Below are positions 4,691-34,875 of a stretch of 37,793 bases of DNA, piece after piece. The translations under genes were made by a program, and so were the position numbers. This stretch comes from Terriglobales bacterium. Its GTDB lineage: Bacteria; Acidobacteriota; Terriglobia; Terriglobales; Acidobacteriaceae. The notes under the pieces were generated by a model. That model was not told where the DNA came from and did not search any database. It worked only from the letters and a program-made list of their open reading frames with translations. The DNA lies in contig JAATFH010000124.1 in the NCBI GenBank assembly GCA_015655315.1, positions 1 to 37,793 of the forward strand. Reading direction: 5' to 3'. The number at the start of each line of letters is the position of its first letter. The stretch's first letter is position 1.

Positions 4691-5962
4691 ATGAAAATAA
4701 TCAAAGTTGAAACCATCTGGTTTGAAGCAGTGCCAGAAGCAGTCTGGCGTGAGCGGGAGCCTCATGCGCGCCAGGCTTTGCCTAATAATCTGTGGGTCCG
4801 CATTTATACGGACGACGGCCTGGTTGGACTGGGAGAGACATACTATCTTCCCCGTGCGGTCAGTGCGATTATCCACGACCTCTTCGCTCCTCTTCTGATC
4901 GGCCGCGACGCCTTTGATACGGAGAACCACTGGACCAATCTCTTCTCCGTGGTCAACTTTTGCGGTTTCGCGGGCGCGGAACTGCGGGCGATCTCTGCAG
5001 TTGACGTAGCTCTGTGGGATTTAGTCGGCCAGTCCCTGCAACAGCCCATCTACAACGTGCTTGGTGGCCGTAGTCGCGATCGCATCCCCGTCTATAACAC
5101 CTGCGTCGGGTCTGGACGGTACGCCGACTACACAGCTTGGACCCAGGGAAGAGCCGGCGAGCTGGCGCAAGACCTGTTAAGCCAGGGCATCACGGCGATG
5201 AAGCTATGGCCCTTTGATCAATTTGGCAACACGGTCGCCGGCCCTGATAAACCACGGGAAAAAGTCTCGATCTGGGGACAGGAGACGGCGGCGGGGCCGC
5301 TGGCCCATTCCATCAGTGATGCCGAGCTGAAAAAAGGTTTAGACATTGTTGAAGACATCCGAAATAAATGCGGCGATGCCATGGCAATCGCCATCGAAGG
5401 ACACGCCCGATGGGATCTTCCCTGCGCAATTCAGATTGCGCGTGCACTTGAGCCATATAACATCCTGTGGCTTGAGGAGATCATGCCACCAGACAATGTC
5501 GACGCATTCGTAAGGCTCAAAGCGGCTACTTCGGTTCGCATCTGTCAGAGCGAACGCGCATTTACCCGCTTCAGGTTTCGCGAATACGTCGAGAAGAATG
5601 CGGCCGACATCATCATGCCGGATCTTTCCTGGGGCGGCGGCTTTACCGAGACGCGTAAGGTTTGCAGTCTCGCAGACACCTATTACCTGCCGATCACGCT
5701 GCATGACACCATCGGCCCTGTGGCGCTTTGCGCGGCGCTGCATCTCATGCTGCACATCCCGAATGCGATGATCCAGGAAATCGTACGAGGCTACATCGAT
5801 AGCTGGTACAAGGATGTCCTGGACGAACCGTTCCTGCTGGAAGACGGTCACCTGCGTTTGAATGGCAAACCCGGCCTTGGAATGGCGCTTCGGAGCGACT
5901 TCACTTCGCGGCCTGGAGCACAGATCACCATCACCACCGAAGACGATCTGAAGAGGTGGTAA
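4691..5962 (+). CDS. Enolase-superfamily sugar-acid dehydratase (galactonate/mannonate dehydratase-like)
   Basis: A 423-residue member of the mandelate racemase/muconate lactonizing group. The capping domain covers about residues 1-130, followed by the TIM barrel. Visible active-site positions are K171 (MKLWPFD), E236-G-H238-A-R240, E262/E263 (WLEE), E288 (SER), D311 (MPD) and H338 (LHDTIGPVALCAALH). The last block closely resembles the GPxALAAxLH segment of D-galactonate dehydratase. H238 sits where these enzymes carry the acid histidine of D-x-H-x-R, but the usual metal-binding Asp is Glu here. The expected reaction is removal of water from an aldonate to give a 2-keto-3-deoxy acid. First gene of the 4691-9061 operon, 9 bp wrongly overlapping with an upstream GTG of the next frame. 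The exact substrate (galactonate, fuconate, rhamnonate) is unresolved. Confidence 0.87.
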   Translation: MKIIKVETIWFEAVPEAVWREREPHARQALPNNLWVRIYTDDGLVGLGETYYLPRAVSAIIHDLFAPLLIGRDAFDTENHWTNLFSVVNFCGFAGAELRAISAVDVALWDLVGQSLQQPIYNVLGGRSRDRIPVYNTCVGSGRYADYTAWTQGRAGELAQDLLSQGITAMKLWPFDQFGNTVAGPDKPREKVSIWGQETAAGPLAHSISDAELKKGLDIVEDIRNKCGDAMAIAIEGHARWDLPCAIQIARALEPYNILWLEEIMPPDNVDAFVRLKAATSVRICQSERAFTRFRFREYVEKNAADIIMPDLSWGGGFTETRKVCSLADTYYLPITLHDTIGPVALCAALHLMLHIPNAMIQEIVRGYIDSWYKDVLDEPFLLEDGHLRLNGKPGLGMALRSDFTSRPGAQITITTEDDLKRW

Positions 5963-5964
5963 CG

Positions 5965-7059
5965 ATGCGCTCCTTCAAAGCATTGTTCACAGGCGATTAC
6001 CTTGATGAATCCGGAGAGATGAGGGGACAGGACATCGGGGTCGATACTCTGAACGACATCGGATTTATTGAGACTGGCTTCCTGCTCGACCAGAAACCGA
6101 CGCCTGGCGATTCGACTTATTGGGACCATTTATACTCTCTGGAAATTACCGCAGAACACATCGCCGATGCCAACGCGATTGTGATCATAAGGCCCTGGCT
6201 GAAGACCGAAGCATTTGCCAAAGGCGCGAAGAACCTAATCGTGATCGCACGCGCAGGCGCAGGCTACGACAAGATCGATATCAAGGCCTGCACAAAAAAT
6301 AACGTAGTCGTCTTCAATGCTCCCGACAGTCTTACTCATTCCACGGCCTCGGCAGCATTTACGTTCATGCTTGCGCTGGCAAAGAGGCTACCGCAGCAAG
6401 AAGCTGTTCTTAGAAGTGGCCGTTGGGACAGGCAATCCGAAATATATGGCGACGACTTGATAGGAAAAATACTAGGCATCGTTGGCCTCGGTAAAACAGG
6501 CCTTGAGCTTGCCCGTCTTGTGGCGCCTTTCCACATGAAGATTCTTGCTTACTCACCCCGCGCTGATCGGTTTGCCGCCGAAGCTTTGGGTGTCGAGCTG
6601 GTACCCAATCTCGAAACACTGCTTTCTGTTTCCGACTTTGTGAGCCTGCACTGCAGGCTGGAAAAACATACCAGGGGCTTACTGGATGCCCAAAAGCTGA
6701 AGCTGCTGAAGCCGACCGCATACCTCATCAATGTGGCGCGTGGAGAGATCATCGATGAAGAAGCCTTGGTGAGATCTCTTCAGGAGAATGCAATTGCCGG
6801 AGCCGGTCTGGATGTCTTCGATACGGAGCCACTTCTGCCCTCGAATCCCCTCCTCGCGCTCGATAACGTCATCCTGACTCCGCACTGGCTTCCCAGTACG
6901 CGCCGCGCAGCGCAGGCAACCAGGGAAGTGATCGTTCAGAACCTGATCCGCGTGGCGACCGGGCGGATACCGCAAAACATATTGAACCCGGAAGTGCTGG
7001 GCCAGCCTGAGTTTCTGCAAAAGCTCGCTCAATTTGAAGAGAATCGGCACAATGGCTGA
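5965..7059 (+). CDS. D-isomer-specific 2-hydroxyacid dehydrogenase (PGDH-like)
   Basis: A 364-residue NAD-dependent dehydrogenase. The Rossmann nucleotide motif GIVGLGKTGLELA is around residues 171-183; the family catalytic set is present as Arg in INVARGEII, Glu in DVFDTEPL and His in TPHWLPSTRRA. I take ATG 5965 as the start because AGAGG is 8 bp upstream; an earlier in-frame GTG at 5956 would overlap the dehydratase stop. The gene follows the dehydratase by 2 bp, indicating tight coupling. It would interconvert a 2-oxoacid and its D-2-hydroxyacid. It carries an N-terminal extension compared with simple D-lactate dehydrogenases. A second, distinct family member lies at 36856. Confidence 0.88.
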   Translation: MRSFKALFTGDYLDESGEMRGQDIGVDTLNDIGFIETGFLLDQKPTPGDSTYWDHLYSLEITAEHIADANAIVIIRPWLKTEAFAKGAKNLIVIARAGAGYDKIDIKACTKNNVVVFNAPDSLTHSTASAAFTFMLALAKRLPQQEAVLRSGRWDRQSEIYGDDLIGKILGIVGLGKTGLELARLVAPFHMKILAYSPRADRFAAEALGVELVPNLETLLSVSDFVSLHCRLEKHTRGLLDAQKLKLLKPTAYLINVARGEIIDEEALVRSLQENAIAGAGLDVFDTEPLLPSNPLLALDNVILTPHWLPSTRRAAQATREVIVQNLIRVATGRIPQNILNPEVLGQPEFLQKLAQFEENRHNG

Positions 7060-7098
7060 TGCAGGGCCGATGCCACCAGATGAGGAAGAGCAAAGATT

Positions 7099-7950
7099 AT
7101 GAGCGAAGAACTTCGGTTAGCCAGTAAAAAAGCACTCGTGACAGGGGCCGATACCGGCATTGGCCGGGAGATCGCGATCGAGTTTGCAAGGAATGGCGCA
7201 GATGTCGTCCTCCACTACAGCCATCACGAGCAAGGGGCCGGCAGCGCAGTCGAAGAGATCAAGGCGATGGGGCGGGAAGCGGTCGCAATCGGCGCTGATT
7301 TTAACGATCTTCAACAGGCGTTATCGCTTACCGAAGGAGCTATCTCCGCCCTGGGCTCCATCAACTGCCTCGTCAACAATGCGGGAATCACTTTTAACTG
7401 TCCTTATGTGGAAATGCAACCTGCCCAGTTTGACACGCTCTTCAACGTAAACGTGCGTGCACCTTACTTCATCACCCAGAAGATCGTCGCCGACATGATG
7501 AAGCATGGTGGCGGCGCTATCTGCAATATTTCATCGATCCACGGATTGCAGGGAGCGCCGGAGCACTCGGCGTACGCGGCCACGAAAGGTGCCATCATCG
7601 CGCAGACAAGGGTATTGGGTATTGAACTTGCTCACCATGGCATTCGAACCAACGCAATCGCCCCCGGCTGGGTCACGGTTGAAAACTTCTTCAGTGAAAT
7701 TCCTGGTTTCTCGGAAGCCGAAGCGAAGAAGAGTGCTTTTAACTCCGTACCCGCAGCGCGTTATGGCGTGCCGCACGACGTCGCCTCGCTCGCAGTTTTT
7801 CTGTGCGGTGACGATGCCGGCTTCATTGTAGGACAGACGATTGTTGTGGATGGCGGAACGACGGCTCTCATGTCTTTGATTTCGAATTTTCGGGACAAAT
7901 CATCCGCACGATTCGGCGCCCGCTATCTGGGGAAAGACGCGCGTGAGTGA
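7099..7950 (+). CDS. Short-chain dehydrogenase/reductase (classical SDR)
   Basis: A 283-residue classical SDR. The cofactor motif TGADTGIG is at residues 15-22, NNAG near 92-95, and the catalytic Ser in ICNISSIHG and Y-x-x-x-K in SAYAATKGA are intact. C-terminal GQTIVVDGGTTA is also typical. GAGGAAG lies about 10 bp before the ATG. It sits between two other oxidoreductases in the dehydratase operon, so it probably oxidises a sugar to its lactone or a 2-keto-3-deoxy acid to a diketo acid. The C-terminus is about 25 residues longer than a minimal sugar SDR. Substrate not determinable from sequence. Confidence 0.9.
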   Translation: MSEELRLASKKALVTGADTGIGREIAIEFARNGADVVLHYSHHEQGAGSAVEEIKAMGREAVAIGADFNDLQQALSLTEGAISALGSINCLVNNAGITFNCPYVEMQPAQFDTLFNVNVRAPYFITQKIVADMMKHGGGAICNISSIHGLQGAPEHSAYAATKGAIIAQTRVLGIELAHHGIRTNAIAPGWVTVENFFSEIPGFSEAEAKKSAFNSVPAARYGVPHDVASLAVFLCGDDAGFIVGQTIVVDGGTTALMSLISNFRDKSSARFGARYLGKDARE

Positions 7951-8002
7951 CAAGAACCACGATTGCACCTGCGATTGCTAAAACACACCGAGAAAGAAGT
8001 GA

Positions 8003-9061
8003 ATGCAAAACCTTATCAAGGTCGATGATCTGAGCCGATTCTGCGAGGAGGTGCTTCTCAGAGAGGGCTTGCGACCGAGCGACGCCAAGACGATTGCTGA
8101 TGTTCTGGTAATGACGGATACCTGGGGTACCTTCTCCCACGGTACCGGCGCGCTGTTGAACTATATTCGGGCTATGCGGACCGGCGGCATTGAATCGTCG
8201 GTCACTCCTGAGGTCGTGTCCGAGGGGCCTTCGTGGGCTGTCATCGACGGCCATGCAGGCATGGCGATGCCGAACTGCAGCATGGCGATGAGCCTAGCGA
8301 TTGAAAAGGCGCGCTCCTGCACGATCGCATGGGTTGGTGTGAGAAACAGCAGCCACTTTGGCGCAGCGGGCTATTACGCAAATATGGCAGCACAGGAAAA
8401 GATGATCGGCATCGCCATGAGCGCTGCCGATCCCAACATGGTCATTCCCGGCGCACGCGGGCACGTCATCGGCAACAACCCGCTCGCCTATGCCGTGCCC
8501 GCAGGCAAGGAGCATCCCATCCTTCTCGACATCGCGCTCAGTGCCAGCGCATATGGAAAAATTATGGGAATGAAGACCAGCGGAAAGCCAATCCCGCAAA
8601 ACTGGATTACGGATGACGATGGGTTGGCAACGACCAGTCTTGAAAACTGGCCAGCCACAGGATCGATGATGCCGATGGCAGGGCACAAGGGTTATGGCCT
8701 CGCGATCCTTGTAGAGGTTCTGGCTGGCTTGCTGGTAGGCGGCTCCACGCTTGCAGAGATGAAGAGCTGGGTGAACAATCCAACGGAGAAGGCCAATCTC
8801 GGACAGGCTTTCATTGCCATCAATGCAGGTGCGATCCTTCCCTTCCAGAACTTTGAACAACGGGTAGAGGAAATGATTCAGCAGTTGCGCGGCGCACCCA
8901 AGGCAAAGGGGTCAGATCGCATCTTCGTGCCAGGCGAGATCGAGTGGGAAAAGCGAGAGAACGCTCTACGGCATGGAATCCCTTTGCCGGATGCAGTCAT
9001 CGAGTCGCTGCATCGCGCCGGTGAGGAATGTGGCATCGATCCGGCCATCCTTCATCAATGA
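8003..9061 (+). CDS. LDH2/YiaK-type malate/L-lactate/2,3-diketogulonate reductase family protein
   Basis: A 352-residue protein of the LDH2 (malate/sulpholactate/YiaK) family, which binds NAD(P)H with its own fold rather than a Rossmann domain. Hallmarks are the S-H-F-G-A-A-G-Y-Y segment with the catalytic His at about residue 115, the GNNPLAYAVP block and GHKGYGLAILVEVLAGLL near 228-245. GAAAGAAGTG precedes the ATG. It is the last gene of the 4691-9061 operon, 52 bp after the SDR. Members reduce 2-oxo or 2,3-diketo acids, so the operon may make a diketo or 2-oxo intermediate that this enzyme reduces. A lactate or malate role cannot be excluded. Confidence 0.88.
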   Translation: MQNLIKVDDLSRFCEEVLLREGLRPSDAKTIADVLVMTDTWGTFSHGTGALLNYIRAMRTGGIESSVTPEVVSEGPSWAVIDGHAGMAMPNCSMAMSLAIEKARSCTIAWVGVRNSSHFGAAGYYANMAAQEKMIGIAMSAADPNMVIPGARGHVIGNNPLAYAVPAGKEHPILLDIALSASAYGKIMGMKTSGKPIPQNWITDDDGLATTSLENWPATGSMMPMAGHKGYGLAILVEVLAGLLVGGSTLAEMKSWVNNPTEKANLGQAFIAINAGAILPFQNFEQRVEEMIQQLRGAPKAKGSDRIFVPGEIEWEKRENALRHGIPLPDAVIESLHRAGEECGIDPAILHQ

Positions 9062-30283: not shown

Positions 30284-31440
30284 ATGATCAATACACTCGC
30301 GTTACTTTTACTCTCTGGAATAGCCGCAGGGCAGCAGACGGATTGGGCAAGGGGATGGATCGGCGCCTTTCGCCATTCGAAAACGGCGCCCGTGCACGTT
30401 GTGGTGTTAAGCGATAGCACCGCACACGTTGACCAAACCAATGGCATCGGATATGGCCCAGACAAACGCATCAATCTATGGCCAAATCAACTCCAGACGG
30501 CTCTTGGAGCGATAGCACCGGGAAGATCTAACGGCACTGACCTGCTTACGCTGGAAGCGAATGCCGGGCGCTTCGATACCGACGTCTGGCAGATATCGGA
30601 GCCATACACATTCAATTCGTCCATCGGACCATTTCAGCCGAATATCGGCAGGGCCGGAGCGATTCCGGCAAATGGTGGCACTGTGCGCCTCAATCCGCAT
30701 GTAGAGGCGTCCCTCTCAAGCCAGACTGGCGATAGTCTCTGGATTTACTGGGCGTCATGCCCGGACAGTTCCGCTTTCACGGTAGAAGTAGACGGAGTGT
30801 CAGCCGGAAGCTTTGGTGGCGATAGCTCAGCGACCTGCGTCGCAAAACGGACTCGTGTTTTTCACGGAGTGCTGGCAGATCACAAGACTACGGTGAAAGC
30901 TGGTAGTGGCAATGCTTATCTCTACGCTGCTGAATGGACGACAGGGCGGCCGGCATTGCCGTCGACAATCTCGCAGTGGGAGGTGCGACAACGACATTTT
31001 TTAATAGCTCAGACAAACTGGCCTTTGTTCATGCAATCCCGAGTGTCGGCCTCGTGATCATCGCCCTCGGCATCAATGACTTTGCGCACGATCTTTCACT
31101 CGACGATTACAGGCAGGGGCTTTCGACGATCATCGAGGACCTGCACAAAACCTCTCCGAAGACATCGATCCTTGTCGTCAGCCAGTATCAGGCGTTAAGC
31201 GACACGATGCGTAACCCTTCAGGCTTACCTCAATCGCAATACAGTGAGCTTGCGCGCCAGACTGCCGAGCACTACAAGGTCGGATATCTCGACCTTGGCG
31301 ATGTTTGGAAATCATTCTCCGTCGTGAACCAAAGCGGCATTCTCACCTCAGACAAAGTTCATCCATCCGATGCAGGTGGACAACAAATTGCTCAACAGAT
31401 CGAGCGTGTAATCGTAGATAAATTGGGATTGCGTCATTAA
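30284..31440 (+). pseudogene. SGNH/GDSL hydrolase interrupted by a frameshift
   Basis: Two overlapping frames together make one secreted SGNH esterase of about 385 residues. The first frame (30284-about 30950) has a signal peptide (LALLLLSGIAAG), the block I nucleophile S45 in VVVLSDSTAHV and a beta-sandwich-like middle. The second frame (from about 30940 to 31440) has GINDFAHD (block III) and the Asp-His pair in SDKVHPSDAGG (block V). Continuous homology would pass from AAEWTTG to GIAVDNLAVGG, requiring a -1 shift in the G/C-rich stretch near 30945-30960. Causes could be a real mutation or a sequencing error; no classical slippery heptamer is visible. The catalytic triad is divided between the pieces, so neither is active alone. 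An intact form would deacylate a carbohydrate. Confidence 0.8.
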
Positions 31441-31515: not shown

Positions 31516-31576
31516 CCTGTAGAGCCCCTTTAGAAGAGTGGTTGTTCGAAACTTTTGCTACTGGAAGGTAGAGATC

Positions 31577-32662
31577 GTGACTTCGAAGATCGCGGTGACT
31601 CACCCTGCTTTGATAGACGTGGCCGGAAAAGAGTGTCAGCTGCCCTTTCTGATCGAGGCGTACCCTGAATCCGCCGATACACCGTTGAGCGAACTTCTCG
31701 ATTGGCTTACAGAAACCACGACGTGGCGAGAAGAACGGCTTCACCGCGCAGGAGCAATCCTCTTCCGTAGATTCACGGCCATCCGAACTGCCGAAGATTT
31801 TGCCGGAGTAGCTCAAAGGATGGCTCCAGAAATTCTGGATTACGCCGGTGGCACCACGCCGCGCAGCGCCATCACCGGAAAGATTGTCACCTCCACCGAT
31901 GCGCCACGCCACGTCGTGATCGGGTTACATCAGGAGATGAGCTACCTGGCCCCGACTCAGGAATTTCCCGATCCAACGCCGGACAAGGTAATGTTTTTTT
32001 GCGCAACCGCGCCCGGGGGAGGGGGTCAGACACCGATTGCCGACATGCGAGCGGTTTATAGAAAGCTTCCGCGCGAATTAGTGGAGCGGTTTGAAAGCAA
32101 AGGTGGACTCATCCTCCATCGAAAGCTGCCCACGCACAAGCGCTATGGCTTTGAGGTAACGTGGACAACGGCGTTCGGCACTTCTAATCAGGCTGAGATG
32201 GAACGCATTGCCAGGAAAAACGGATGGCCGATGTCATGGGGAAAGGATGGCGGCCTGGAAGTGACTCACGGTCCATCACCTATAGTGAGAAGGCACCGCG
32301 TGACCGGAGAAAAGATCTGGTTCAATCAAGCGCACCTGCTGCACAAGTCTGTCGCTCCGTGGACATCCGCATGGCTTGGCCCCAGTGCACTTGAGCGGAT
32401 GAAAGCCAGGGTAATGGAGCCGTTCATTCGTGATCGCTTCTATTACCACTCGACGTTTGCGGATGGTTCCGAGATATCCGAGAAGGATCTGGACACGATT
32501 CGGAGTGTAATTGCAGAAGAGATGGTCCTTTTTGATTGGCAGAGAGGCGATGTGCTTCTAATCGATAATAAGCTGGTCTCGCATGGGAGGCAGCCTTACA
32601 GCCCACCGCGGACGATCTACGCAGCCCTGCTCGCGGATCAAGCTCGGCGTCCGGCTGCATAG
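31577..32662 (+). CDS. TauD/TfdA-family Fe(II)/2-oxoglutarate dioxygenase
   Basis: About 361 residues from GTG 31577, which has GGAAGG 8 bp upstream; a GTG at 31538 lacks such a site. The iron-binding facial triad is readable: H118 and E120 in GLHQEMSY (Glu in place of the more common Asp) and the distal H336 in LVSHGRQPY. R345 (SPPRTIY) would hold 2-oxoglutarate. The TPRSAITGKIVTSTDAP and CATAPGGGGQTPIADMR segments are typical of the branch near clavaminate-synthase-like and natural-product hydroxylases. It is the first gene of a four-gene unit with an SDR, a lactonase and a ruined MFS transporter. The reaction is hydroxylation or oxidative cleavage of an unknown small molecule. Confidence 0.88.
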   Translation: MTSKIAVTHPALIDVAGKECQLPFLIEAYPESADTPLSELLDWLTETTTWREERLHRAGAILFRRFTAIRTAEDFAGVAQRMAPEILDYAGGTTPRSAITGKIVTSTDAPRHVVIGLHQEMSYLAPTQEFPDPTPDKVMFFCATAPGGGGQTPIADMRAVYRKLPRELVERFESKGGLILHRKLPTHKRYGFEVTWTTAFGTSNQAEMERIARKNGWPMSWGKDGGLEVTHGPSPIVRRHRVTGEKIWFNQAHLLHKSVAPWTSAWLGPSALERMKARVMEPFIRDRFYYHSTFADGSEISEKDLDTIRSVIAEEMVLFDWQRGDVLLIDNKLVSHGRQPYSPPRTIYAALLADQARRPAA

Positions 32663-32687
32663 CAACTTTTGATTGAAGGGAAATTCG

Positions 32688-33473
32688 TTGAGAGTAGACC
32701 TGGGAGGTAAATTCGCGCTGGTTACTGGTGCTGCTCGCGGCATTGGTGAGGCGATCGCTAATACCCTAGCTGCCAATGGGGCACGGGTTGCATATGCGGA
32801 CGTTGATTTTGAAACAGCCAAGAAGACAGCCGCTAAAGTACCCGGTTCGCTGCCCGTAGCGGTGGACATCAGCAGCGAATCGAGTGTCGAGTCTGCGATG
32901 GCTGAAGTAGTGAAGCAATTTGGGCGCGTCGATATCCTGGTCAACAACGCTGGTGTCAACACTGCAAAATACCGCGTGAACATTGACCAGTTTCCGCTTG
33001 ATGAGTGGGAGCGGATCGTAAAGATCGATCTCACCGGCACCTATCTTGTCAGCCGTGCAGCCTCACGTATCATGATGCAACAGCGTGAGGGCCGTATCGT
33101 CAACATCTCTTCCGTGCTGGGCATCATCCCGGCTCGCCTGCAGTGTGCCTTCACCTCAGCTAAGGCCGGTGTTGTCCACCTCACGCGCACCCTGGCAATC
33201 GAACTGGGCGAATACGGAATTCTGGTGAACTGTGTCGCGCCAGGATCGACTTTAACGGAAGGTACCCAGCAGCTCTTCTACAGCAATAACGCAGCGGAAA
33301 AAGACCGGGCTAATCGCCTGCTGAGCCATGTGCCTCTTGGACGAGCGGGAACCGTACAGGAGATGGCCAATGCAGTGCTCTTTTTTGTGGCTCCGGACAG
33401 CAGCTACATCACCGGTCAGACGCTCTGCGTAGACGGTGGATGGAGCGCAGGCGGTTTCTTCCGCGACTTCTAG
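32688..33473 (+). CDS. SDR-family protein with catalytic Tyr replaced by Phe
   Basis: About 261 residues from TTG 32688 (AAGGGA 6 bp upstream); TTG 32673 is less likely. It has the cofactor motif TGAARGIG, NNAG, the catalytic Ser pair in VNISSVLG (141/142), and K159. The tyrosine of Y-x-x-x-K is Phe (F155, codon TTC at 33150-33152) in CAFTSAKAG. C-terminal GQTLCVDGGWSAGG is normal. Without the tyrosine the standard proton relay is lost, so it may be inactive, bind substrate for another enzyme, or use a different group. It is encoded 25 bp after the dioxygenase and just before the SMP-30 lactonase, the place expected for a sugar dehydrogenase. Confidence 0.85.
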   Translation: MRVDLGGKFALVTGAARGIGEAIANTLAANGARVAYADVDFETAKKTAAKVPGSLPVAVDISSESSVESAMAEVVKQFGRVDILVNNAGVNTAKYRVNIDQFPLDEWERIVKIDLTGTYLVSRAASRIMMQQREGRIVNISSVLGIIPARLQCAFTSAKAGVVHLTRTLAIELGEYGILVNCVAPGSTLTEGTQQLFYSNNAAEKDRANRLLSHVPLGRAGTVQEMANAVLFFVAPDSSYITGQTLCVDGGWSAGGFFRDF

Positions 33474-33487
33474 TGAAATGGTTGAAG

Positions 33488-34408
33488 ATGGAAAAATCAT
33501 TTGAGGTTTTGTCTGATGAGTTTCAGCGAATCTTAGGTCCTTCGCCCGAGCTCACGCTTATTTCTTCAGGCTTGAAATTTGCCGAAGGCGTTTGCTGGGT
33601 TGAGCGCCAGGACTGTCTGATCGTCAGCGACTTCTTAAATGACCGGATCGTAAAGTGGTCGCCACAGCACGGGATGGGGATTTTTCGCCAACCCGCGGCC
33701 ACGGCGAATGGGAATGCTGTTGACCGAGAGGGCCGCGTCATCTCGTGCTTAACACGTGGCCGTTCGGTTGTACGCGAAGAACTGGACGGATCGTTGACCA
33801 CCATTGCAGATCGCTATCAGGACAAGCGATTGACGTCACCGAACGATGTCATCGTCAAGTCGGACGGAAGTATCTGGTTTACCGATCCCGACTACGGTTT
33901 TCTCGTTCCGGATTTCGGCCACGGCGACAAGCCGGAGCAAGATCGAAATCGTGTCTATCGGGTTGTACCGGATACAGGCGAAATAAGCGTTGTGTCCGAG
34001 GATTTCGACAAGCCCAATGGTTTGGCGTTCTCTCCAGACGAATCGGTGCTCTATGTGGGAGATACCGGGCGCACGCACGGAGAATTCCGGTCGCATCAAT
34101 TGATCGCATTCGACGTGATAAATCAAGGCATCTCGCTTACCAATCCCAGAGTGTTTACCTTGATTGAGCCGTGGGTTCCCGATGGCTTCAGACTGGATGT
34201 AGACGGGAATCTTTACGTGACGGCGGGAGACGGCGTGCAGGTCTTCGATCCGCATGGGAATCTGTTGGGTAAGATTCTTACACCACAGGTAGCGGCAAAT
34301 TGTTCGTTTGGCATGTCAGATAACCAGACTCTCTTCATCGGGGCGAGCAACTCGATCTGGAGTATCAGGCTCAATACGTCTGGAGCTAAGAACACCCTCT
34401 TGAAATGA
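33488..34408 (+). CDS. SMP-30/gluconolactonase/LRE-family lactonase
   Basis: About 306 residues from ATG 33488; an upstream in-frame ATG (33440) lies inside the SDR gene. It is a six-bladed beta-propeller with the metal ligands of the family: Glu in FAEGVCWV (about residue 31), Asn in SPNDVIV, Asn in KPNGLAFSPD and Asp in VPDGFRLDVDGNLYV. WFTDPDYGF and YVGDTGRT are also typical. It would open an aldonolactone to the free acid, the step between sugar dehydrogenase and dehydratase. It is cytoplasmic, with no signal peptide. It starts 14 bp after the SDR stop, so the two are co-translated. Confidence 0.9.
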   Translation: MEKSFEVLSDEFQRILGPSPELTLISSGLKFAEGVCWVERQDCLIVSDFLNDRIVKWSPQHGMGIFRQPAATANGNAVDREGRVISCLTRGRSVVREELDGSLTTIADRYQDKRLTSPNDVIVKSDGSIWFTDPDYGFLVPDFGHGDKPEQDRNRVYRVVPDTGEISVVSEDFDKPNGLAFSPDESVLYVGDTGRTHGEFRSHQLIAFDVINQGISLTNPRVFTLIEPWVPDGFRLDVDGNLYVTAGDGVQVFDPHGNLLGKILTPQVAANCSFGMSDNQTLFIGASNSIWSIRLNTSGAKNTLLK

Positions 34409-34460
34409 CAGCAGCCAGCATCTGGCTCGGTCTTCTAAACTCTCAGACGAGGCGGCTGCA

Positions 34461-34875
34461 ATGTCGAATCACTACAGCAAATGGCTCGTGCTTGCATTGC
34501 TCTGGATGGTGGCGTGCCTGAATACATGGACCGGATGGCGGTTTTGTCATCTTCCCCATACTTCAGCGAGAGATGCACCTGTCAAATGTCTCGCTGGCGA
34601 TGCTCGGGTCAGTCTTCCTCTGGGTATATGGACTTTGCTCACCGCCGAGTGGATATTTAGGAGACCGTTTCCCGCGTAAGCCGGTGATTTTTTGCACTCT
34701 TCTCATTTTCAGCGCTGTCACGCTGGCGACAATCTTTCCGGCACAATCGCGGGCAGCATTGGCATCTTCTTCGTCGGCTACTTTAAGAAGTCCTGGGGAA
34801 TTGGCATCAGCCTCTCGGTCACGTCGCTGCTTCTGTTTGCATATGAAGCGCTTGCTGGCTCTGCAACTGCGTAAG
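34461..34875 (+). pseudogene. Degraded MFS transporter (ACS-type) with frameshifts and internal deletion
   Basis: Pieces of one MFS protein occur in successive frames. The start MSNHYSKWLVLALLWMVACLN should continue YMDRMAV (one base missing near 34522), then VIFPILQREMHLSNVSLAML (another missing near 34542), SVFLWVYGLCSPPSGYLGDRFPRKP (the GDRxxRK loop after helix 2) and helix 3. At about 34730-34745 it jumps to GTIAGSIGIFFVGYFKKSWG and a final helix ending near 34873, so helices 4-10 are missing. It is the fourth gene of the dioxygenase unit and was presumably the transporter for that pathway. The losses mean no working carrier is made. Confidence 0.8.

Follow-up and report, generated by a model that had tools for sequence, protein, structure and literature searches.

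In the short-chain dehydrogenase/reductase (SDR) superfamily, the tyrosine of the YxxxK motif is regarded as the central acid-base, and proteins are called active or dead by its presence. In classical SDRs, as described in the available part of one paper, this tyrosine serves as the acid-base and the lysine lowers its pKa (PMC5812520). In a stretch of DNA of 37,793 nucleotides from a Terriglobales bacterium (contig JAATFH010000124.1, hereafter the window), one SDR gene carries phenylalanine at the tyrosine position, and the question arises whether we are dealing with a gene that lost its function recently, with a protein of another role, or with an enzyme that manages without the tyrosine hydroxyl.

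The features of the locus are collected in Table 1. The reading frame of the SDR gene is open from end to end, an alternative in-frame TTG start lies at 32673, and the cofactor motifs TGAARGIG and NNAG are present. The earlier note had claimed a TTC codon for Phe155 with Ser142 and Lys159 intact, and this was borne out by the codon itself, by the open frame and by the orthologue of Acidobacterium sp. S8, an independent genome record in which the protein is 97.7% identical and codon 155 is likewise TTC. Asp114, found in place of the tetrad asparagine, is a feature additional to that note. Its observations on the neighbours hold as well: an SGL lactonase gene directly follows the SDR gene, the upstream GDSL hydrolase gene is broken into two frames, against a single frame of 403 aa in S8, and the downstream MFS transporter gene is broken and shorter than the 439-aa frame of S8. 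The hydrolase occupies 30284-31440 of the window, its name coming from the likeness of the first ORFs. The transporter remnant (34395-34841; MFS is our own reading) has a broken frame and is devoid of approximately residues 114-377 of the S8 frame, and the DNA alignment with S8 stops inside it, at 34729.

Table 1. Positions in the window of the SDR gene, its diagnostic residues and selected neighbouring genes
Feature	Position	Strand	Remarks
SDR-superfamily protein, Phe155 at the Tyr position	32688..33473	+	261 aa; TTG start
TTC codon for Phe155, where the catalytic Tyr would stand	33150..33152	+	
Ser142	33111..33113	+	kept in 51/51 family members
Lys159	33162..33164	+	kept in 51/51 family members
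Asp114 at the tetrad-Asn position	33027..33029	+	51/51 family members; non-family stretches: Asn 43/49, Asp 1/49
Arg150-Leu-Gln152 family signature, 5 and 3 residues before 155	33135..33143	+	R 50/51, Q 51/51
C-terminal Arg259-Asp-Phe tail	33462..33470	+	
SMP-30/gluconolactonase (SGL) gene, directly downstream	33440..34408	+	listed ORF; translation more probably starts at 33473 or further on
TauD/TfdA-type dioxygenase gene, directly upstream	31538..32662	+	five further regions in the subclade of the window also have it upstream of the SDR
Enolase-superfamily sugar-acid dehydratase-like gene	4691..5962	+	relatives near family members elsewhere

Broken genes on both sides of the SDR gene and an assembly of 564 contigs, 77.5% complete, could speak for a recent loss of function, as the earlier note had proposed, or for a sequencing error in this strain. 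The probability of such an explanation is practically negligible, since TTC also occurs in S8, Phe is shared by 41 of the 51 family members, across three phyla, and is not confined to this strain, the family ancestor probably had Phe, and the gene is under purifying selection (dN/dS 0.026). Sequencing error was ruled out by the TTC codon of S8 and by the other orthologues. In S8 the same Phe is accompanied by intact copies of both damaged neighbours, so their decay is not linked to Phe155.

Profile searches place the protein well inside the superfamily, with 207.3 bits for adh_short_C2 (PF13561, E 3.3e-61, cut-off 27) and 182.8 bits for adh_short (PF00106, E 6.8e-54, cut-off 26.6). It scores 224 on the NCBIfam model NF005559 (PRK07231, glucose 1-dehydrogenase subfamily; cut-off 215), and the canonical SDR encoded at 7099 of the window scores 224.2, so this model does not single out the Phe155 protein. 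The AlphaFold model (mean pLDDT 91.9) has a classical SDR fold, and its closest match in the PDB is 4npc (Z 38.9, rmsd 1.2, 246 aligned residues), with others within 1-2 Z. No substrate could be read from these relatives: the best sequence matches in the PDB are mostly FabG-like, with no sugar substrate named, and the structural matches, separated by no more than a few Z units, are classical SDRs with a wide range of functions.

The family was assembled by searches starting from the window protein and comprises 51 distinct members, this protein and 50 others, from Acidobacteriota, Planctomycetota and probable Alphaproteobacteria. Five loci that repeat another (L009, L010, L043, L044, L045) were dropped before counting, none on account of residue 155; L053, cut by a contig end, and L003, without a stretch near the glycine motif, were retained in the counts. 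Locus L001 is Acidobacterium sp. S8, L002 and L003 are planctomycete metagenome-assembled genomes and L006 belongs to Proteobacteria; other members were placed by their kinship to these four, and the taxonomic family of genome G1451 is probably alphaproteobacterial, judged from its genes. Matches are sparse, with 3 among 61 relatives. Members were found in 5 of 396 genomes of the window's phylum (its own genome included), in all four genomes of one acidobacterial family (the same four as found phylum-wide), in 11 of 392 planctomycete genomes sampled by phylum and 26 of 346 sampled by order, and in one of the two genomes from the order of G594. In the phylum of L006 a single genome of 299 was positive, and the family of that match gave 7 of 297. 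Three genomes of other groups gave no match at 1e-45, and no plasmid-borne copy was found in the plasmid collection at 1e-55. A second, Tyr-type orthologue was not found in the window genome, 77.5% complete, where the sole other match at E <= 1e-40 is one of 34%.

Beyond S8, the nearest relatives of the window protein are planctomycete, with 66-74% identity, and at this similarity the gene is absent from two of the three same-genus genomes searched (one 59% and one 99% complete). Horizontal transfer of the window SDR gene is a possible scenario, as far as these similarities indicate.

The active site of the family is almost constant. N91, R96, D114, S142, Q152, K159, S187 and W252 occur in 51/51 members and R150 in 50/51, with Phe and Tyr members alike. 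The NNAG block is present in 51/51; among the rows with a letter at the position, T13, G14 and D38 are each found in 50/50 and G20 in 49/49, and the middle glycine of the cofactor motif is variable (G in 44/50; L003 is without the stretch just after it). The control set was drawn from 164 matched stretches in the fetched loci. After removal of 100 stretches of over 42.5% identity (the family, repeats included), 8 not spanning residues 100-165 and 7 repeats, 49 non-family SDR stretches were left, and filtering them for the family signature took away no more. Tyr stands at position 155 in 47 of these 49, and the remaining two, with Phe, are degenerate partner proteins that are also devoid of the lysine.

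The combination of D114, R150 and Q152 was seen in 0/49 control stretches. A signature of this kind, in proteins that keep the cofactor motifs while Tyr is missing in 41/51, might also belong to a non-redox or otherwise different chemistry, in which bound NAD(H) serves epimerisation, dehydration, decarboxylation or isomerisation and no Tyr base is needed. The cupin fold includes isomerases too, and it is a small cupin gene that most often directly follows a family gene (12/38 regions, 10 Phe and 2 Tyr; e.g., L102:8766-9248). We regard such a chemistry as unlikely, since the Tyr members have the same signature, the cupin accompanies Tyr members too (2/9 regions), and lactonase or FAA-hydrolase neighbours fit a dehydrogenase.

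Position 155 is occupied by Phe in 41 members and by Tyr in 10, with no third residue. The fewest changes within the family amount to 9 on the best tree, for which the trait column was left out of tree building, and to 9, 8 or 7 changes in 582, 417 and 1 of 1000 bootstrap trees, respectively; an earlier 44-member tree gave 8. The change count is approximate, since a few long rows (L051, L052) are present and support is weak at several forks. Under a two-state model with four rate settings, Phe was reconstructed for the family ancestor with a posterior of 0.91-0.97, despite seven outgroup SDRs that all have Tyr, and it may be concluded that the ancestor probably had Phe. One-way models are far poorer (lnL -35.4 and -46.7 vs -26.1). 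End branches are longer in Tyr members (median 0.30 vs 0.13 in Phe members), which argues against a wholly neutral toggle; together with the dN/dS of 0.133-0.199 in three Phe-Tyr pairs, this suggests that the change from Phe to Tyr may accompany a change of function. Among 44 rows, no compensating residue came near to tracking the Phe/Tyr state: the next best column, 45, has mutual information of 0.34 vs 0.54 for the trait. In a literature search with thin coverage of subscription journals, no published description of a natural SDR family switching between Phe and Tyr was found.

Between the window and S8, the SDR gene has dS 0.459, dN 0.012 and dN/dS 0.026, and the flanking genes have dN/dS of 0.11-0.12 (TauD, dS 0.335 and dN 0.040; SGL, 0.321 and 0.036); purifying selection acts more strongly on the SDR gene than on either of these two neighbours. 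In a close, hand-chosen subset of pairs, some of which share a row, dN/dS was 0.026-0.179 for 12 Phe-Phe pairs, 0.103 and 0.136 for two Tyr-Tyr pairs and 0.133-0.199 for three Phe-Tyr pairs. On these pairs, Phe-type genes are at least as constrained as Tyr-type ones. Taken together, the sequence comparisons show a family with repeated Phe/Tyr switching, invariant Ser142, Lys159 and Asp114, and purifying selection.

The gene neighbourhood was studied in 40 regions, in 38 of which (29 Phe and 9 Tyr, the window and S8 being two of them) the SDR ORF was called; it was missed in L099, a Tyr locus, and in L105. The neighbours are genes of sugar and sugar-acid catabolism. The window itself contains, at 4691-9061, genes of enolase-superfamily, 2-hydroxyacid dehydrogenase, canonical SDR and Ldh2 proteins. 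A 2-hydroxyacid dehydrogenase gene is nearby in 8/29 Phe and 2/9 Tyr regions, and an E1 gene of 2-oxoacid dehydrogenase (one cluster) in 5/29 and 1/9, accompanied by genes which we read as E2-like, one related protein falling just under the Pfam E3-binding cut-off. Ldh2 and UlaG-like metallo-hydrolase genes also occur among the neighbours, and an enolase-superfamily dehydratase-like gene was found in 3/29 Phe and 0/9 Tyr regions. The SGL lactonase gene directly follows the SDR gene in 6/38 regions, which all have Phe and belong to the subclade of the window, and an FAA hydrolase gene does so in 2/38 (1 Phe, 1 Tyr). SGL, TauD and enolase neighbours were seen with Phe members only; 7/9 Tyr regions have a neighbour gene family in common with Phe regions, and the other two are short. 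In the alphaproteobacterial set, L131 has an FAA hydrolase gene immediately upstream of the SDR gene, and L126 has an aldose 1-epimerase gene two genes downstream of it. The adjoining lactonase suggests aldose 1-dehydrogenation as the SDR reaction, and the FAA-hydrolase neighbour suggests oxidation of a 2-keto-3-deoxy acid; the substrate would be a sugar or a sugar acid.

Summarizing these data, we lean with moderate confidence to the view that this is a functional NAD-binding SDR family of sugar-acid catabolism, for which the hydroxyl of the catalytic Tyr is optional and which has Phe as its usual and probably ancestral residue, with the role of NAD-dependent dehydrogenase and the proton relay described here being inferred. 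The tetrad asparagine of SDRs normally helps to hold water near the lysine. Since neither Lys159 nor Ser142 varies in the family and Asp114 takes the place of this water-holding Asn, a relay through Lys159, Asp114 and water is proposed. The Phe155 protein would thus act as an NAD-dependent dehydrogenase in which Ser142 holds the substrate oxygen, and the part of the tyrosinate in proton transfer would be taken by a water that Lys159 and Asp114 keep in place together with the hydroxyl of the nicotinamide ribose. Packing may be the reason why the ring at position 155 is retained. The Arg tail at the C-terminus (Arg259) would help to complete an active site, probably that of a neighbouring subunit.

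A scaffold role had been named in the earlier note next to a changed chemistry. Of these two suggestions, the second is favoured in the form of Tyr-independent catalysis and the first less so, because Ser, Lys and the cofactor motifs are kept and the Phe and Tyr members share the active-site signature. As scaffolds or pseudo-subunits, Phe-type proteins would be non-catalytic and, with NAD bound, would support or regulate another SDR, much as the inactive subunit does in BbsCD, a precedent known to us from a title. A canonical second SDR family does occur near some members, with a further copy in the window at 7099-7950; it is, however, near no more than 6/38, Ser142 and Lys159 persist in 51/51, and the protein adjacent to the Phe SDR in the probable Alphaproteobacteria is itself the degenerate one. 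It is improbable, in our opinion, that the Phe proteins are such pseudo-subunits.

These adjacent proteins deserve separate consideration. In all seven probable alphaproteobacterial loci (L126-L132), a gene of 191-216 aa adjoins the Phe SDR gene on the same strand (e.g., L129:8951-9559, minus strand), downstream in three and upstream in four, with gaps of -31 to 59 bases. Its product is a degenerate paralogue, which has kept Ser142 and lost the glycine motif, the NNAG block and Lys159. In each pair the NAD motif and the lysine are kept by the Phe protein only, and the retained cofactor motifs and Lys, in which the Phe protein stands alone here, mark it as the probable catalytic one. An aromatic residue at 155 is retained in the partners (6 Phe and 1 Tyr of 7), devoid of the lysine as they are, which means that retention of the ring is no proof of catalysis. 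The R-x-F/W C-terminal tail is found in 44/44 members outside the probable Alphaproteobacteria, in 0/7 Phe SDRs inside this group and in 7/7 partners. In the partner model (mean pLDDT 81.5), the last eight residues are under 50. A search with one partner gave matches in 3/190 genomes of the probable alphaproteobacterial family, all three also with the Phe SDR; the G1451 partner, which is more divergent, was missed by this search at 1e-25. No degenerate partner was called beside the window gene.

Division of the tail between the Phe SDR and its partner makes sense if the tail acts on the neighbouring subunit and both proteins form one enzyme, and it suggests a split, two-subunit enzyme in the probable Alphaproteobacteria. 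A more complete proposal is tentative, and we are rather more doubtful than confident about it as a whole: the family would oxidise with NAD without a Tyr hydroxyl, by means of Lys159, Asp114 and water; its ancestor would have had Phe, with Tyr regained several times; and in Alphaproteobacteria an NAD-binding Phe subunit and a degenerate subunit giving the Arg tail in trans would make up an obligate two-part dehydrogenase.

Judging from the proteins compared, the window protein represents more than one mutated gene, namely what appears to be a conserved SDR family in which Tyr is optional. The repeated alternation of Phe and Tyr on an otherwise constant active site offers matched pairs for probing the contribution of the hydroxyl, and it cautions against labelling Phe-type SDRs pseudoenzymes in annotation. 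Should the split form prove real, it would show how the active site of an enzyme encoded by one gene can come to be shared between two.

Among known systems, the classical SDRs of the FabG and glucose 1-dehydrogenase type are alike in fold and in the TGxxxGxG motif, NNAG, Ser142 and Lys159; the family differs from them in having Phe for Tyr, Asp114 for the tetrad Asn, R96, R150, Q152, S187 and the C-terminal Arg tail. Human HSDL1, which belongs to a different SDR family, has a natural Phe at the SDR Tyr position and was reported to be inactive. BbsCD is reportedly a heterotetrameric SDR, the title of the work naming "inactive pseudoenzyme subunits", and BbsD (7pcs_B) is among the structural matches of the window protein (Z 36.6). 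As far as this title tells, the likeness is that an SDR with an NAD site goes together with a degenerate one; in the probable alphaproteobacterial loci, it concerns adjacency and complementary features only (7/7). The alphaproteobacterial NAD-site protein differs in having Phe, its degenerate partner keeps the C-terminal tail, and the window gene is without such a partner.

The ketoreductase SimC7, according to the accessible text on it, is an SDR functioning without Tyr, in which Ile and His replace Tyr and Lys and catalysis relies on a substrate proton (PMC5812520); the Phe family, in contrast, keeps the Lys and an aromatic ring. Eugenol synthase and the PIP-family reductases, atypical SDRs, are likewise without the catalytic Tyr and keep the catalytic Lys, and in the consulted portion of that study Lys132 of eugenol synthase works via a bridging water, K132A and K132Q being inactive and K132R retaining 71% (PMC1991597). 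They are NADPH reductases of plant phenolic substrates from another SDR branch, whereas the Phe family is known here from sequence. L-2-keto-3-deoxyfuconate 4-dehydrogenase resembles the family as an SDR of sugar-acid catabolism, and FAA-hydrolase neighbours occur in a few family loci. The structure 4dqx, another match of the window protein (Z 37.1), is placed near type 2 in the scheme of the paper on this enzyme, which in the part available to us describes a Ser-Tyr-Lys triad with Arg148 three residues before Tyr151 (PMC11199699). In the Phe family, the position equivalent to Arg148 is taken by Gln152 in 51/51 members.
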